Both the position numbers and the translations under genes were made by a program. This document shows, in pieces, positions 4,374 to 13,972 of a DNA stretch of 57,823 nucleotides (position 1 is the stretch's first letter; the number at the start of each line of letters is the position of its first letter). Under the pieces are notes generated by a model. That model worked only from the letters and a program-made list of their open reading frames with translations. It had not been told where the DNA came from and ran no database searches. This DNA is from Aeromicrobium sp. (GTDB taxonomy: Bacteria > Actinomycetota > Actinomycetes > Propionibacteriales > Nocardioidaceae): positions 1 through 57,823 of the forward strand of contig JAOPXY010000103.1 of assembly GCA_025964895.1 (NCBI GenBank), read 5' to 3'.

Positions 4374-4528
4374 GCCCGCCGTCCGGACCCGGGGCGCGGT
4401 TTCCCAGGATAACCCCGGGTTCTGCCGCTGGACGGCGGCGCTGGACGACGGCGCTCAACGGGGTTGGCACCGTTCTCCGGCACCTAGCCCCTGTTGCGAC
4501 CGGGGTGGGGTGCCGGTTTCCGGGCATG

Positions 4529-4600
4529 TCCCAGGAAGCTTCCGGGGTTCTCCTGGGAATCCCCCCACGCTCGGGACGCGCGAGCCGCCGCGACTAGGAT
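4529..4600 (+). promoter_or_regulatory. Leader region of glycosyltransferase gene: hairpin plus -10-like box
   Basis: The 273-bp gap 4374-4646 holds an inverted repeat TCCCAGGA (4529-4536)/TCCTGGGA (4551-4558) and, further on, TAGGAT at 4595-4600, a common actinobacterial -10 sequence, 46 bases before the GTG of the next gene. The left part of the hairpin resembles an earlier stretch at about 4401-4422 (TCCCAGGA then CCGGG and GTTCT), so a partial direct repeat is present. No coding potential is seen in this gap. The promoter call is tentative because no clear -35 box is visible. Confidence 0.35.
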
Positions 4601-8383: not shown

Positions 8384-8549
8384 CGCGGGGTCCTGTTCTG
8401 AGGGGAGCGTGCCGGGGTCGTGCCGATCCTAGCGAGCGGCGCCGTCTCGGAGCCCTTCGCCCGATCGGATAACCTGTGCGAGGCCCACGGCCCACCAGTC
8501 CGCACGCGCTCCAGCCCGCACCCCTCCAGCCCAGATGGGACCGCCGCGC

Positions 8550-10667
8550 ATGACCATTGCTCAGCACCGTTCCGGTGGAGCCGCGACTCCGACGACGAAG
8601 CCCGACCACGGCCGCACGATCCGCCTCGACATCGAGGGGATGCGCACGATCGCGGTCGGCTCGGTGCTGATCGGCCACGCCGGCGTCCCGTTCATGGCCG
8701 GCGGTTTCGTGGGTGTCGACGTGTTCTTCGTGCTGTCGGGCTTCCTGATCACGGGCCTGCTGGCTCGTGAGGTGTCCCGCACGGGCCGGGTCAGCCTCGC
8801 GAACTTCTGGGCCCGCCGCATGAAGCGCCTGCTGCCGGCCAGCGCCACCGTGCTGGCCTTCTCGGCGCTCGTCACCTACCTGTACCTGCCGATCACGCAG
8901 CGCAAGGACTTCGGCGGCGACATCGTCTCGGCGGCGCTGTACGTCGTCAACTGGCGCCTGGCCGATCGCGGGGTCGACTACCTCGCCGAGGACGTCGGCA
9001 AGTCGCCCGTCCAGCACTACTGGTCGCTCGCGGTCGAGGAGCAGTTCTACGTCGTCTGGCCGATCCTGATGCTCGTCATCGGCATCCTCGCGGCCAGGCG
9101 CTGGAAGCAGGGCGCCTTCGTCGTGCTGGGCGTCGCGACGGTCGCATCGTTCGCGTACTCGGTGCAGCAGACGTCCGACAGCCCCGCGACGGCCTACTTC
9201 GTCTCGACGACCCGCATCTGGGAGCTGGGCCTCGGCGCCCTGCTGGCCCTGGCCGCGGTGCGAGTCGAGCGGATCCCGTCGCTGCTGCGCGCGATCGGCG
9301 GCTGGGTGGGCATCGCCATGATCCTGTACGCCGTCTTCGTCTTCGACGAGGCGACGACGTGGCCCGGCACGAACGCGCTGGTGCCGACAGTCGGCGCGGC
9401 CCTCATGATCGCGAGCGGGCTCAGCACGACGCCGTTCTCGCCGCAGCGGCTGCTGAGCCTCGCGCCGATGGTGTGGATCGGTGGCCTGTCGTACTCCATC
9501 TACCTGTGGCACTGGCCGATCCTGATCGCCGCGCAGGCCGAGCGGCCCGACATGCGCCTGCGGTACGTCATCGTGCTGATGATCCTGTCGGTCGTGCCCG
9601 CCTACCTGAGCAACCGCTTCATCGAGAACCCCGTGCGATTCGGGTCGGGGTTCAAGCCGACCGGCCGGGCGATCGGCCTGGGTCTCGCGCTCACCGCGAT
9701 CGGCGTTGGGGTGGGGTACCTGCTGAGCGCGTCGGTCAACGTGGGCTCGGACGTGACGAAAGCCGAGCCCAACGATGCGGTGGGCGCCGCCGCCCTGCTC
9801 GACCCGGCGCGCAAGGACGTCGTCTGGAGCGACATCAAGTCCGTCGACGCGATGCGCCCGCTCGCGACCGAGGCGGTCGACGATCGCCCCGCGTTCTACA
9901 GCGACGGCTCCGGCTGCCAGGTCAAGAACGGCGACGCGACGCCCAAGCCCTGCTACTGGGGTGAGAAGGACGCCGACCGAAAGGTCGTCATCATCGGCGA
10001 CTCGAAGATCGCGCAGTGGCAGACGGCCCTCGACCTGATCGCGAAGGACGAGGGCTTCGAGCTCATCCAGATCACGAAGTCGGCCTGCCCGTTCACCGAC
10101 GCCAGCATCGACCGACCCAACAGGGTCGACTGCCGCGCGTGGGGCAAGGCGGCGCTGCGGGACATCTTGGAGATGAAGCCCGATCTCGTCATCGCGTCGC
10201 ACCGCATGCGGGACGCGCTGCCGGAGGGCAAGACCGACGACAAGGACGCCACGCAGGACGCGATGGCAGCCGGCATGGCGTCCTACTGGTCGACGCTGAC
10301 GCAGGCAGGCATCCCCGTGACGGCACTGCTCGACAACCCCGCACCGTCGACCGAGCCGGTGTACGAGTGCGTCGCGCAGAATCCGACGAACCTGCCGGCG
10401 TGCGCCTTCGACCGCGACAGGGGCATCGCGGCGTCGGGTGCCCCGGCTGCGTTGCAGGCCGCCAAAGAGGTGCCGGGCGTCACGACGATCGACATGACCG
10501 ACACGATCTGCCCCGACGGAGCCCGGTGCTCCGCGGTCATCGGCAACGTCCTGGTCTACCGCCAGGGCACCCACGTCACCAAGTCGTTCGTCGACAGCGC
10601 CCAGGCCCAGCTGGCCGACGCCCTCTACGACGCCACCGACGGCGACTTCGGCGCCAAGCTCCCCTAG
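8550..10667 (+). CDS. Acyltransferase-3 / SGNH-domain surface polysaccharide O-acyltransferase
   Basis: An integral membrane acyltransferase of the OafA/YrhL group with a C-terminal SGNH hydrolase-like domain (705 residues from this start). The membrane part opens with RLDIEGMRTIAVGSVLIGHAG (His in the family's conserved position), has GGFVGVDVFFVLSGFLITGLL, about ten hydrophobic helices, and PVQHYWSLAVEEQFYVVWP. The SGNH part contains VVIIGDSKIAQW (~residue 480) with the nucleophile Ser. Such two-domain proteins move acyl groups across the membrane to modify polysaccharides. ATG 8550 is preferred over ATG 8535 because a GGGA ribosome site (8537-8540) sits at the right distance only for 8550. 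A TAACCT box at 8470-8475 may be the promoter. Confidence 0.9.
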   Translation: MTIAQHRSGGAATPTTKPDHGRTIRLDIEGMRTIAVGSVLIGHAGVPFMAGGFVGVDVFFVLSGFLITGLLAREVSRTGRVSLANFWARRMKRLLPASATVLAFSALVTYLYLPITQRKDFGGDIVSAALYVVNWRLADRGVDYLAEDVGKSPVQHYWSLAVEEQFYVVWPILMLVIGILAARRWKQGAFVVLGVATVASFAYSVQQTSDSPATAYFVSTTRIWELGLGALLALAAVRVERIPSLLRAIGGWVGIAMILYAVFVFDEATTWPGTNALVPTVGAALMIASGLSTTPFSPQRLLSLAPMVWIGGLSYSIYLWHWPILIAAQAERPDMRLRYVIVLMILSVVPAYLSNRFIENPVRFGSGFKPTGRAIGLGLALTAIGVGVGYLLSASVNVGSDVTKAEPNDAVGAAALLDPARKDVVWSDIKSVDAMRPLATEAVDDRPAFYSDGSGCQVKNGDATPKPCYWGEKDADRKVVIIGDSKIAQWQTALDLIAKDEGFELIQITKSACPFTDASIDRPNRVDCRAWGKAALRDILEMKPDLVIASHRMRDALPEGKTDDKDATQDAMAAGMASYWSTLTQAGIPVTALLDNPAPSTEPVYECVAQNPTNLPACAFDRDRGIAASGAPAALQAAKEVPGVTTIDMTDTICPDGARCSAVIGNVLVYRQGTHVTKSFVDSAQAQLADALYDATDGDFGAKLP

Positions 10668-10680
10668 CCCGCGGCCCTTC

Positions 10681-10720
10681 GGTTTACCCGGTTAACCGGG
10701 TAAACCACGACCCCACCGGG
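10681..10720 (+). repeat. Left 40-bp inverted repeat flanking the AbiEi/Vsr-like gene (contains 26-nt perfect palindrome)
   Basis: Bases 10681-10706 are a perfect palindrome: arms GGTTTACCCGG and CCGGGTAAACC around TTAA. It is followed by ACGACCCCACCGGG. The reverse complement of 11886-11925 matches this 40-base block at 38 of 40 positions by my count, and weaker similarity (10/15) continues to 10735. As RNA it would fold into an 11-bp stem with a TTAA loop 13 bases after the acyltransferase stop, so it may also act as a terminator, but no T-run follows. The similarity beyond the palindrome shows this is a repeat family or element end, not only a terminator. Confidence 0.85.
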
Positions 10721-10851
10721 TGACTTTGCCCGGCGAGGTGGTGGGGTGCCCGGTCGAGTCGGCTGTCCACAGGAGGCGGCCGGACGCCGCATCGTCCACA
10801 GCCCAGGCTCTCGACGAAGCGATCACCGTCGGGCCGGACGACGCTCGAGCC

Positions 10852-11880
10852 ATGGACGACATCTTCATGGCCCTGGCCAATCACCGCGGTGGTTACTTCT
10901 TCCGGCACGACCTCCTGGACGCAGGCTTCCGGGACGCCGACATAGCGGCCGCGTGCCGGGACGGGCGCCTGGTGAGGCTCCGCCACGGCACGTACGCGCC
11001 GGCGCCGCTCGTCGGACTGATGACGCCGGAGCAGCGCCACGTCCTCATCGCCTATTCGGTGGCCGACCGCATCGGGCCGGGAGTGGCGCTGTCGCACCAC
11101 TCGGCCGTCCTGGCCCACGACCCCACAGGGACGTTCGGCATCGACCTGCGCACCGTCCACCTCACCCGCCTCGATGGACGTCACGGCAGGCAGGAGGCGG
11201 GGGTGCAGTGGCACGTCGGCGATCTCGACGACGCGGACCTGGTCGAGGTGGACGGGCGACTCGTCGTCCGGGCCGCGCGGGCGTCCTTCGAGTCCGCGTG
11301 CCTGTCGACGACGGAGTCCGGACTCGTCACCGTGAGCTCGATGATGCACGCCGAGAGATGCACCCGCGAGCAGCTCGTCGAGCTGGGCGAGCGCTTCTCC
11401 CGCTGGCCCGGGAGCCGGCACGCCCGCCTGGCACTCCGGCTCGCCGACGAGCGCTGCGAGACCCCGGGTGAGTCGCGGTCGCTGTTCATGTTCTGGCGAG
11501 AAGGCATCCCCCGGCCCGACACGCAGGTCATCGTGACCGACCACGGGGGTCGTCAGGTGGCGCGCACCGACTTCGCGTGGATACCCGACCGGCACACCGG
11601 GGAGTTCGACGGCCGGGTCAAGTACGGACGGCTGAACCCTGATCCCCGCGACCCAGGCATGGTCCTCGTCAGGGAGAAGCGCCGCGAGGACACCGTGCGC
11701 GGCGAGTCGGTGGGGATGTCGAGATGGACATGGGACGACATGCATCCTGCCGTGCGCAGCGCGACCGCCGCACGCATCGAGCGTGACCGCCAGCAGTCCC
11801 GCCGGATCTACGCCAAGAACGTCACGCACATCTCCCTCGCGCCCGCACCGCAACGGGCAAACGTGCGCCGCACCGGGTAA
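10852..11880 (+). CDS. AbiEi-like antitoxin-domain protein with C-terminal Vsr/DUF559-like nuclease motif
   Basis: A 342-residue protein from ATG 10852 (a longer GTG start at 10720 would begin inside the left repeat and adds low-quality sequence). The N-terminus, GGYFFRHDLLDAGFRDADIAAA and GRLVRLRHGTY, resembles the winged-helix of AbiEi-type antitoxins. The middle (SHHSAVLAHD, then VHLTR) fits the same actinobacterial family. The C-terminus has a PD-(D/E)XK-like set: Glu207 (ESRS), Asp240 (TDFAW), Glu251-x-Asp253-Gly with Lys257 (EFDGRVKY), then REKRRED and a closing RWTWDD. That set is intact, so nuclease activity is plausible. No toxin partner (AbiEii) is adjacent. It is bracketed by near-identical inverted repeats and interrupts the glycopolymer genes. 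Function is unknown; the domain call is by motif reading. Confidence 0.72.
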   Translation: MDDIFMALANHRGGYFFRHDLLDAGFRDADIAAACRDGRLVRLRHGTYAPAPLVGLMTPEQRHVLIAYSVADRIGPGVALSHHSAVLAHDPTGTFGIDLRTVHLTRLDGRHGRQEAGVQWHVGDLDDADLVEVDGRLVVRAARASFESACLSTTESGLVTVSSMMHAERCTREQLVELGERFSRWPGSRHARLALRLADERCETPGESRSLFMFWREGIPRPDTQVIVTDHGGRQVARTDFAWIPDRHTGEFDGRVKYGRLNPDPRDPGMVLVREKRREDTVRGESVGMSRWTWDDMHPAVRSATAARIERDRQQSRRIYAKNVTHISLAPAPQRANVRRTG

Positions 11881-11885
11881 AGATG

Positions 11886-11925
11886 CCCGGTGGGGTCGTG
11901 GTTCACCAGGTTAACCGGGTAAACC
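11886..11925 (-). repeat. Right 40-bp inverted repeat flanking the AbiEi/Vsr-like gene
   Basis: Inverted copy of the block at 10681-10720, differing at two positions (both in one arm of the palindrome at 11900-11925). Weaker similarity extends to 11871, across the stop codon of the enclosed gene at 11878-11880. It lies between the convergent AbiEi/Vsr-like gene and the TagF-like gene (ends 11943), where it could also terminate both transcripts. I did not see an obvious short direct target duplication outside the two repeats. Confidence 0.83.
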
Positions 11926-11942: not shown

Positions 11943-13640
11943 TCAGGTGATGCCGCGGGTGCGGACGAGGTGCTCGATGGCCTCGACGGTGCGGCGGGAG
12001 TTGTCGCGGTCGTGGAAGGTGAAGAGCCGGCGGGCGCGCTCGTCGTACTCGGGCTCGCGGACGTTGCCGGCGCGCACGTAGTGCTCGATCGCGTCGATCG
12101 TCGACTCGATGTCGTGGGTCACGGGTCCGAAGCCGTCGCGCTCGTGGTCGAACCATGACGGCTCGGCGTGGCCGGCGGAGAACTCCTCGCGGTCGAAGTG
12201 CGTGTAGACCAGCGGGGTGCCCAGATAGGCGAGGTCGAAGTGCACCGAGGAGTAGTCGGTCAGGAACAGGTCGCAGCGCCGCATGACGTCCTGGATGTCG
12301 GACGCACCGCCGTCGAGCACCGTGACGCGGTCGCCTCCCAGCGACGGGTCGACGTACTCCTCGCGCAGGTTGTAGTGCGGCATGAACTCGAGCCGGTGGT
12401 CGTGCTCGGCGAGCAGCGCGTGCAGCCGCGGGGACGACAGCAGCCCGTCGACGAAGCGCTGGTACGTCGAGCCGTCGAAGGGCTGCTCGCCGCTGGCACC
12501 GTCGCCGAACAGCTTGGGCGCGAGGTAGCGCCGCCATGTCGGCATGAACAGGATGGTGCGGCTCGGCGGCGTCGGCACCAGCGCGTCGAAGCGCGGCAGG
12601 CCCGTCTCGGCGATCTGCTGGTCGTAGCCCGACGTCAGCCGCACCGCGTCGGACTCGGCGCGGCTCGCCGTCAGGTACAGGTCGTACCCGCCCGTGCGCC
12701 GGCGGACGTCCTTGGTCTTGTCGTTGATGCCGTGCTTGAGGTAGACGCGGTACGCGCCCGTGCGCCAGTTCAGCTGACGCATGTAGTGCTGCTTCTTCCA
12801 CCGTGACGGCACCATGTGCTTGACCGAGTAGGCGTTCGCCAGGACGGTCGCGTGCACCATCAGCACCCGGTGGCGCCACGACGAGTGCCGGACGACCCGC
12901 CCGAGTCGGGACAGCTCCGCGAAGCGGTCGCTGGACGGGTCGAGCACGTAGTACGCGCGCACGTCGGGCCGCTCGCGGCGCAGGTACGTGAACAGGTGGT
13001 AGCCGTTGTCGCGCGCCGTGTCGGCCCGCTCGCCGACGAGCCAGATCTCGCGCCGAAGGAAGAACGGGCGGGTCAGGAGCCGCAGCGGCTGGACGGAGGA
13101 GAACGGGCGCCGGCGGACCGCGTCCTTGGCCCACCGTGCGAACAGCCTGCCCCGCCATCGCATCCCGGAGAGCCCCGCCGGGTACTCCTGCGCCAGGATC
13201 TCCGCGCGCTCGGACGCCGACGGGAACAGCTGCAGGCGGCGACCGGACGCCACGATCGGACGCGATGCCGCGAGGGCTCCCGGAGCGGCCCCGACGGGCA
13301 CGCGGGACGCCTCGCCCGCGCCGTCGGGCGCCAGCAGGGCGACGTCGAGCCCCGTCGTGCCCACCGGGATCTCGTCGATCGGCACGTCGGCGACGAATCC
13401 GGTCCAGCGGTACGCGCCGTCCTCGTAGCGCAGCCGCGGCTCGGTGACGACGTCGACGGCATCCTTGCCATGGGCGTCGAGCCAGTGCAGCACGAGCACC
13501 TGGTCGGCCGGCTGCTCGCCGTCGGTGCCGGGCCGCCGGCACGTGCCAGTCAGCCGCAGCGTGCTGCCGCCACCCGTGACGTCGATCCCGTGGAGGCTCG
13601 CCGCGATGATCTGGACGGGCTCGGGCGCGGGGGAGGTCAC
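11943..13640 (-). CDS. TagF-like CDP-glycerol:polyol-phosphate glycerophosphotransferase
   Basis: A 565-residue enzyme of the CDP-glycerol glycerophosphotransferase family, which polymerises or adds polyol phosphate units to teichoic-acid-like chains at the inner membrane face. The N-terminal ~190 residues form a beta-rich accessory region. The transferase domain contains HLFTYLRRERPDVRAYYV, WRTGAYRVYLKHGIND (catalytic His region), ILFMPTWRRYL and, near the end, CDLFLTDYSSVHFDLAYL and TPLVYTHFD, all family hallmarks. GTG 13640 is chosen since it overlaps the stop of the upstream small gene (GTGA) and the sequence upstream of it is read in another frame. Last gene of a four-gene operon that starts with exonuclease III. 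The polymer is unknown. Confidence 0.87.
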   Translation of the reverse strand: MTSPAPEPVQIIAASLHGIDVTGGGSTLRLTGTCRRPGTDGEQPADQVLVLHWLDAHGKDAVDVVTEPRLRYEDGAYRWTGFVADVPIDEIPVGTTGLDVALLAPDGAGEASRVPVGAAPGALAASRPIVASGRRLQLFPSASERAEILAQEYPAGLSGMRWRGRLFARWAKDAVRRRPFSSVQPLRLLTRPFFLRREIWLVGERADTARDNGYHLFTYLRRERPDVRAYYVLDPSSDRFAELSRLGRVVRHSSWRHRVLMVHATVLANAYSVKHMVPSRWKKQHYMRQLNWRTGAYRVYLKHGINDKTKDVRRRTGGYDLYLTASRAESDAVRLTSGYDQQIAETGLPRFDALVPTPPSRTILFMPTWRRYLAPKLFGDGASGEQPFDGSTYQRFVDGLLSSPRLHALLAEHDHRLEFMPHYNLREEYVDPSLGGDRVTVLDGGASDIQDVMRRCDLFLTDYSSVHFDLAYLGTPLVYTHFDREEFSAGHAEPSWFDHERDGFGPVTHDIESTIDAIEHYVRAGNVREPEYDERARRLFTFHDRDNSRRTVEAIEHLVRTRGIT

Positions 13641-13972
13641 TTCTTCGCGGCGTCGAGCTCGGCGATCGCGTCGAGGATCGACTGGCGGGCGTGCGCGATG
13701 TCGGCGAGCGTGCGGGCCGAGGCCCGGTCGACCGCTGCCTGGGCGTGCGTCGTGCCCGTGGTCGCGGCGCCGGACTCCGGAGCCGTCACGAGGTAGGCGG
13801 CGATGACGGCCTGGAGGAACAAGATGCACACCAGCGCGAGGTCGTACTCATCGGTCAGCACGGCGAGGAGTCCCAGGACGACCAGGACGGCCGTCGCGAC
13901 GGCGAGCACGAGGGTGCGCTGCGCGATCAGTCGGCGCACGATCGCCTTCGCGCTGGTCTGGGTGCTGCTCAT
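13637..13972 (-). CDS. Small two-helix membrane protein of glycopolymer operon
   Basis: A 111-residue protein with a basic N-terminus (AKAIVRRLIAQR), two adjacent hydrophobic helices (about residues 20-40 and 45-65) separated by TDEYD, and a soluble Ala-rich helical tail that is likely coiled-coil (DRASARTLADIAHARQSILDAIAELDAAKK region). I do not recognise the family. It overlaps the upstream glycosyltransferase by ATGA and the downstream TagF-like gene by GTGA, so it is translationally coupled to both. This suggests a membrane anchor or scaffold for the glycosyltransferase/TagF pair, which is an inference from position only. Confidence 0.8.
   Translation of the reverse strand: MSSTQTSAKAIVRRLIAQRTLVLAVATAVLVVLGLLAVLTDEYDLALVCILFLQAVIAAYLVTAPESGAATTGTTHAQAAVDRASARTLADIAHARQSILDAIAELDAAKK

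Follow-up and report, generated by a model that had tools for sequence, protein, structure and literature searches.

What kind of genetic unit is formed when a single nuclease-like gene lies between two mirror-image repeats in the midst of a glycopolymer cluster? The question is raised by positions 10681–11925 of the window, by which is meant the whole stretch of 57,823 nucleotides of Aeromicrobium sp. analysed here (GCA_025964895.1, contig JAOPXY010000103.1). A sequence-only reading had proposed either a minimal self-spreading element with a logic resembling that of REP/RAYT units or an orphan defence gene with operator-like ends. The explanation preferred here, with a probability of about two in three, is that the unit is a gene-bearing, palindrome-bounded mobile element whose protein binds and cuts the ends, repair then copying the unit. 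Mobility of the element is well supported; that it is driven by the enclosed protein is inferred.

Layout of the element and predicted folds of its protein

The element spans 1.2 kb, with mirror-image ends around a single nuclease-like gene (Table 1), and this architecture is observed directly. Positions 10681–10720 match the reverse complement of 11886–11925 at 38 of 40 nucleotides, and a repeat search lengthened the arms to 10681–10752 and 11854–11925 (72 nt, 81%). The inverted-repeat score was 77, compared with 35 for the best of 60 shuffles. Each end starts with a palindrome (P); a middle hairpin (M) follows, and then a degenerate half-copy of P, this last judged by eye. The sequence-only reading proved accurate as to the two inverted 40-bp blocks, the single gene that they enclose and the 26-nt palindrome in each, although the right copy departs from the perfect left one at two bases. 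The weaker extension of the right repeat does reach the stop codon (TAA, 11878–11880), and the flanking genes, for an acyltransferase with an SGNH domain and a CDP-glycerol glycerophosphotransferase, agree with the glycopolymer setting. As the gene start, ATG at 10852 is better placed than GTG at 10720, since the latter lies inside the left end and relatives begin at the aligned position. In relatives for which an ATG was chosen, the start was mostly about 55–120 nt inside the left arm.

Table 1. Features of the element at 10681–11925 and of its neighbours, in window coordinates.
Feature	Coordinates	Strand	Evidence or remark
Left neighbour, acyltransferase with SGNH domain	8535..10667	+	stop 13 nt before element
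Left palindrome P, outer part of left end	10681..10706	.	26 nt, perfect
Left middle hairpin M and degenerate inner half-palindrome	10707..10757	.	end alignment, DNA fold; half by eye
Single gene, 342 aa	10852..11880	+	AbiEi-like N-terminal half and Vsr/homing-endonuclease-like C-terminal half (predicted)
AbiEi antitoxin fold (winged helix and second domain), residues 1–199	10852..11448	+	6y8q, Z 10.2, 183 residues
PD-(D/E)XK-type nuclease fold, residues 204–318	11461..11805	+	3r3p (I-Bth0305I), Z 11.5, 97/97 residues
Right inner half-palindrome and middle hairpin M, stop codon included	11845..11899	.	end alignment, DNA fold
Right palindrome P	11900..11925	.	2 bases different from left P
Right neighbour, CDP-glycerol glycerophosphotransferase	11943..13829	-	convergent; stop 17 nt after element

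The structure of the 342-aa protein was modelled with high confidence (pLDDT 93.6, pTM 0.88). The antitoxin-like winged helix noticed earlier is borne out by the match of residues 1–199 to AbiEi; the same residues also match Rv2827c (1zel, Z 8.0). PADLOC labels this half AbiEi (1e-10), Foldseek alone puts AbiEi first for the modelled protein, and Pfam AbiEi_4 scores 22 bits, under its cut-off of 25. For the nuclease half, the closest known structure was that of the homing endonuclease I-Bth0305I, and comparison of residues 204–318 with Vsr gave Z scores of 9.6 (1cw0) and 8.3. Searches by sequence found no relatives of known structure in the PDB, and NCBIfam offered no family name for the protein. 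The nuclease fold has a conserved residue set: residues E207, E251, D253, K257, E275, R278 and E279 were invariant in 58 sequences and D240 was kept in at least 90% of them, in agreement with the intact PD-(D/E)XK-like residue set described from the sequence. For these alignments, 57 of the 77 usable relatives were entered in alignment A2 and locus L021 was left out of alignment A1. That the E/D/K/R set is catalytic is inferred from the modelled fold alone. The protein is accordingly described only as a predicted joining of an AbiEi-like DNA-binding half to a Vsr/homing-endonuclease-like half.

Inverted ends of the gene family in relatives

Relatives of the protein were found in 47 of the 58 genomes searched, a tally that admits weak matches down to E 0.001, and the family was present in 63 of 296 genomes of the phylum at E 1e-20. 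Ends were tested by aligning the 700 nt upstream of each gene with the reverse complement of the 700 nt downstream, in comparison with 60 shuffles. Inverted ends surpassed the shuffles at 31 of 32 gene-family loci; the sole miss (L044) had a mis-placed start and otherwise passes (63 vs 28), and two loci passed narrowly (L048, 41 vs 39; L049, 41 vs 36). A wider set was drawn from Aeromicrobium, Nocardioides, Marmoricola, Mumia, Microlunatus, Pseudonocardia, Blastococcus, Geodermatophilus and Rhodococcus, with L122 and L172 dropped for want of flank. Scores of at least 38 were obtained for 72 of its 78 testable loci, whereas windows shifted within those loci reached that level in 2 of 794 cases, and at the stricter threshold of at least 50 the counts were 67 of 78 and 0 of 794. 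Among the six misses (L146, L157, L177, L181, L182 and L187) were the sole Rhodococcus and Blastococcus loci of the set. The counts of the 32- and 78-locus sets are not independent, because the loci overlap in part, coming from the same genomes.

Twelve more loci yielded inverted ends in 11 cases, although coordinates are unreliable for one pass (L287) and for the miss (L297), both of which lie at contig edges. In a control with the glycerophosphotransferase family, inverted ends were seen at 0 of 26 loci, four short loci being excluded. Among loci taken from the whole phylum, which represent more distant relatives, 15 of 30 had inverted ends at a score of at least 40; the association of ends and gene therefore either weakens or becomes harder to detect with distance. 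The search of relatives for the repeat with and without the gene, which had been proposed as a check, thus shows family and inverted ends occurring together across genera. The repeat is not a simple intergenic one lacking any tie to the gene family, the outcome that would have refuted the proposal: it is dispersed, but associated with the family.

The ends are specific to each element. Over 31 elements, the median score was 95 when the two arms of an element were compared with each other and 15 when the arms came from different elements. The more alike two proteins were, the more alike were their ends (Mantel 0.59 over 435 pairs, a value reached in 0 of 2000 permutations), L044 being excluded from both comparisons. 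Only in 16 of 30 cases was the nearest neighbour by protein the nearest by ends as well. The window protein and a paralog on contig C177 of the same genome are 45% identical and have unrelated ends (score 17), and since paralogs of one genome differ in this way the ends follow the gene, not the host. As far as sequence comparison can tell, this co-variation could arise partly from shared descent. The C177 paralog (L020) is itself a second gene-bearing element, with many dispersed copies of its ends. On contig C48 of the same genome, a distant paralog (L021; 29% over 127 residues) lies between inverted repeats scoring 95 that consist of short tandem units.

These observations bear on whether the nuclease is no more than cargo, possibly with a role in defence, carried between ends that an unrelated transposase moves in trans. 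The naming of the N-terminal half by PADLOC models, and the lack of any evidence here of the protein acting on its ends, would suit such a passenger. However, between inverted ends of differing sequence in many genera the same gene family was found and nothing else, the ends track the protein subfamily even between two paralogs of one genome, and no Y1 transposase was found in the window genome. The passenger explanation is considered improbable.

Gene-less copies and occupancy of sites

Searching the window genome for P with up to three mismatches returned 19 copies on 12 contigs, as against none for a reversed-pattern control. Ten P places were read besides the window: six held two copies of P exactly 62 nt apart around M, forming 88-bp P-M-P units, and in the remaining four the spacing was 82–114. 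The end family of the C177 paralog gave 56 matches on 29 contigs of this genome; one gene-less copy of this type lies within the glycopolymer region of the window itself, at about 4479–4561. A third end family had 35 matches in genome G011, 26 in its close relative G029, 6 in G007 and 1 in G061, and was absent from the window genome (G000) and from G034, G067 and G033. Its miniature is also 88 bp long. Conservation broke off sharply about 6 nt beyond the miniature in an alignment of 20 copies, the flanks of which were unrelated or orthologous; the other six of the 26, partial or degenerate, were left out of this alignment. No target-site duplication was found in the 26 copies, apart from one chance 5-mer off the boundary, and no known transposition chemistry is therefore indicated.

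For two miniatures, folding as single-stranded DNA gave a single long hairpin each (z −8.2 and −13.7). Compensatory changes in the outer stem were limited to one column pair (p 0.028, uncorrected), on which no claim is based, and no known RNA family matched. Gene-less copies mostly lie directly 3' of stop codons. In 7 of 9 places those of the window family had convergent genes on either side, with both stops often 5–15 nt away. Most miniatures of G011 and G029, by contrast, had tandem neighbours (15 of 20, with 4 convergent and 1 at an edge).

The palindromes might instead serve a host regulator, a solitary AbiEi-like autorepressor, as operators and two-way terminators whose dispersal is incidental. 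Binding of AbiEi and of Rv2827c to inverted repeats within the promoters of their own genes is reported (PMC7319586), and the convergent setting of the window-family copies and the conservation of several sites accord with this role. Against it, an operator downstream of the gene is not needed, sharp-edged 88-bp copies adjoin unrelated genes, and repression requires no conserved set of nuclease residues; we regard it as very improbable. An orphan defence gene with operator-like ends, the second of the original proposals, likewise leaves the gene-less copies unexplained.

Comparison of empty and filled sites, also suggested at the outset, demonstrated both presence and absence. At the acyltransferase/glycerophosphotransferase junction the gene was absent from 14 of 14 orthologous loci of other species (1.5 kb examined); in 12 of these both genes are adjacent as in the window, the acyltransferase match being partial in L064 and L065. 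In G011 (L054) a third-family gene-less miniature sits exactly at this junction, where G029 has no third-family miniature. Unrelated repeats or hairpins occur there in L055 (G029, near 1380–1500) and L052 (G034).

The closest relatives of the window protein come from G027 and G023 (64% and 62% identical) and occupy a different location. Both adjoin a fructose-bisphosphate-aldolase-like gene, and the G027 copy has a diacylglycerol-kinase-like gene on its other side (genes named by eye). At this junction G000 and G029 carry a C177-type element instead, in the opposite orientation. One type is therefore found at two sites and one site with two types, so that switching of sites is documented. Invariable position of the gene, which would have counted against mobility, does not hold, though several sites are common to many species.

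Movement of the element is slow. Counterparts in G029 exist for 11 of 16 miniature places in G011, several gene-bearing sites are common to three to seven species, and around one gene-bearing copy one flank is common to seven species and both flanks to six. At one site shared by six species (L029, L030, L035, L039, L040 and L042) the ends differ between species while left still matches right, and from these sequences the two ends appear to change in concert. Clean empty sites are few, because the places at which only G011 has a gene-less copy, other than the acyltransferase junction, are mostly rearranged spots. Where G011 (L228) has a damaged miniature, the counterpart in G029 (L238) is a stretch of about 1.2 kb that includes a glycerophosphodiesterase-like gene (by eye). 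One gene copy of G029 seems frame-shifted, being represented by two adjoining matches. Of 69 gene-bearing elements, 34 had convergent and 6 had divergent genes on their two sides, as against 60 and 78, respectively, of 311 neighbouring gene pairs; these counts rest on simple gene calling, with 3 of 72 elements excluded at contig edges. At the search sensitivity used, plasmid collections held no copies and viral collections no confirmed copies.

Different element types, in both orientations, at one junction would also be expected of a homing process, in which the nuclease cuts gene-less P-M-P units or bare junctions and the gene-bearing copy acts as repair template. The gene would then spread by gene conversion, with the ends as possible homology arms and the miniatures as landing sites or leftovers, and the resemblance of the nuclease half to I-Bth0305I lends this some weight. 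Nevertheless, both ends contain complete M hairpins rather than a split recognition site, and the miniatures outnumber the genes and possess sharp boundaries of their own, for which conversion alone is insufficient. Homing of this kind is unlikely.

The preferred explanation remains a self-spreading element with REP/RAYT-like logic, favoured by the co-occurrence of gene and ends, the gene-less copies, the co-variation and the variable site. In the mechanism proposed, the AbiEi-type half would recognise the terminal palindromes and the Vsr/homing-type half would cleave or nick DNA at these palindromes or close by, possibly once hairpins have been extruded from them. The element would then be copied into intergenic gaps through break repair or strand transfer, the gene-less P-M-P miniature being copied far more often than the gene-bearing element. 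That the protein binds and cuts its own ends, and thereby drives copying, is an inference for which there are no biochemical data.

Relation to known systems and significance

The nearest parallel is the REP/RAYT system (REPtron), comprising TnpA-REP, REP palindromes and REPIN doublets. Both systems border the gene with palindromes, have dispersed gene-less palindrome doublets between genes, display co-variation of protein and repeat with few genes and many repeats, and are chromosomal. The REP/RAYT protein is a Y1 HUH transposase, whereas that of the present element is an AbiEi/PD-(D/E)XK fusion, and the present element additionally has perfect palindromes and a third, middle hairpin. A search gave no sign of a RAYT transposase: Y1 HUH (PF01797) gave no matches in the window genome, the assembly of which is 95% complete, and matches in 5 of 14 control genomes. 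With no Y1 transposase found and other protein folds present, the working is REPtron-like but the element is not a REPtron.

EDxHD/Vsr homing endonucleases such as I-Bth0305I resemble the catalytic half in fold (3r3p, Z 11.5, 97 residues) but lack the fused AbiEi-like half and the palindromic ends around the gene; the present gene, moreover, is outside any intron or intein, sitting between two intact convergent genes. AbiEi antitoxins of type IV toxin–antitoxin systems (S. agalactiae AbiEi, Rv2827c), the family whose reported binding of inverted repeats was cited above, share the fold of only the N-terminal half of the present protein, without the added nuclease half or palindromes on both sides of the gene. 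The DUF1814 nucleotidyltransferase toxin was not among the adjacent genes of the window locus, which encode the acyltransferase and the glycerophosphotransferase. IS200/IS605 elements and MITEs are likewise short and have structured ends and gene-less derivatives; unlike them, the present element is accompanied by no Y1 transposase found in the genome and no target-site duplication was seen.

No literature on such an element was found in open-access PMC, preprints not being covered. This kind of mobile DNA is widespread in actinobacteria and, within that scope, which also omits ISfinder, apparently undescribed. On balance, and with some reserve, it may form a separate class of mobile DNA, in which an AbiEi-headed nuclease of Vsr/homing type spreads its own hairpin ends and seeds P-M-P miniatures.

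Palindromic repeats without a gene are common in bacteria. To our knowledge, the HUH transposase of REP/RAYT is the only gene partner described for them. If the present explanation is true, the REP/RAYT arrangement was invented independently with unrelated chemistry; the existence in actinobacteria of a system built on an unrelated nuclease would mean that the arrangement arose more than once, and would provide a second experimental handle on the spread of palindromic repeats. Many actinobacterial genes annotated as AbiEi antitoxins may then be mobility enzymes, rather than antitoxin or defence genes.
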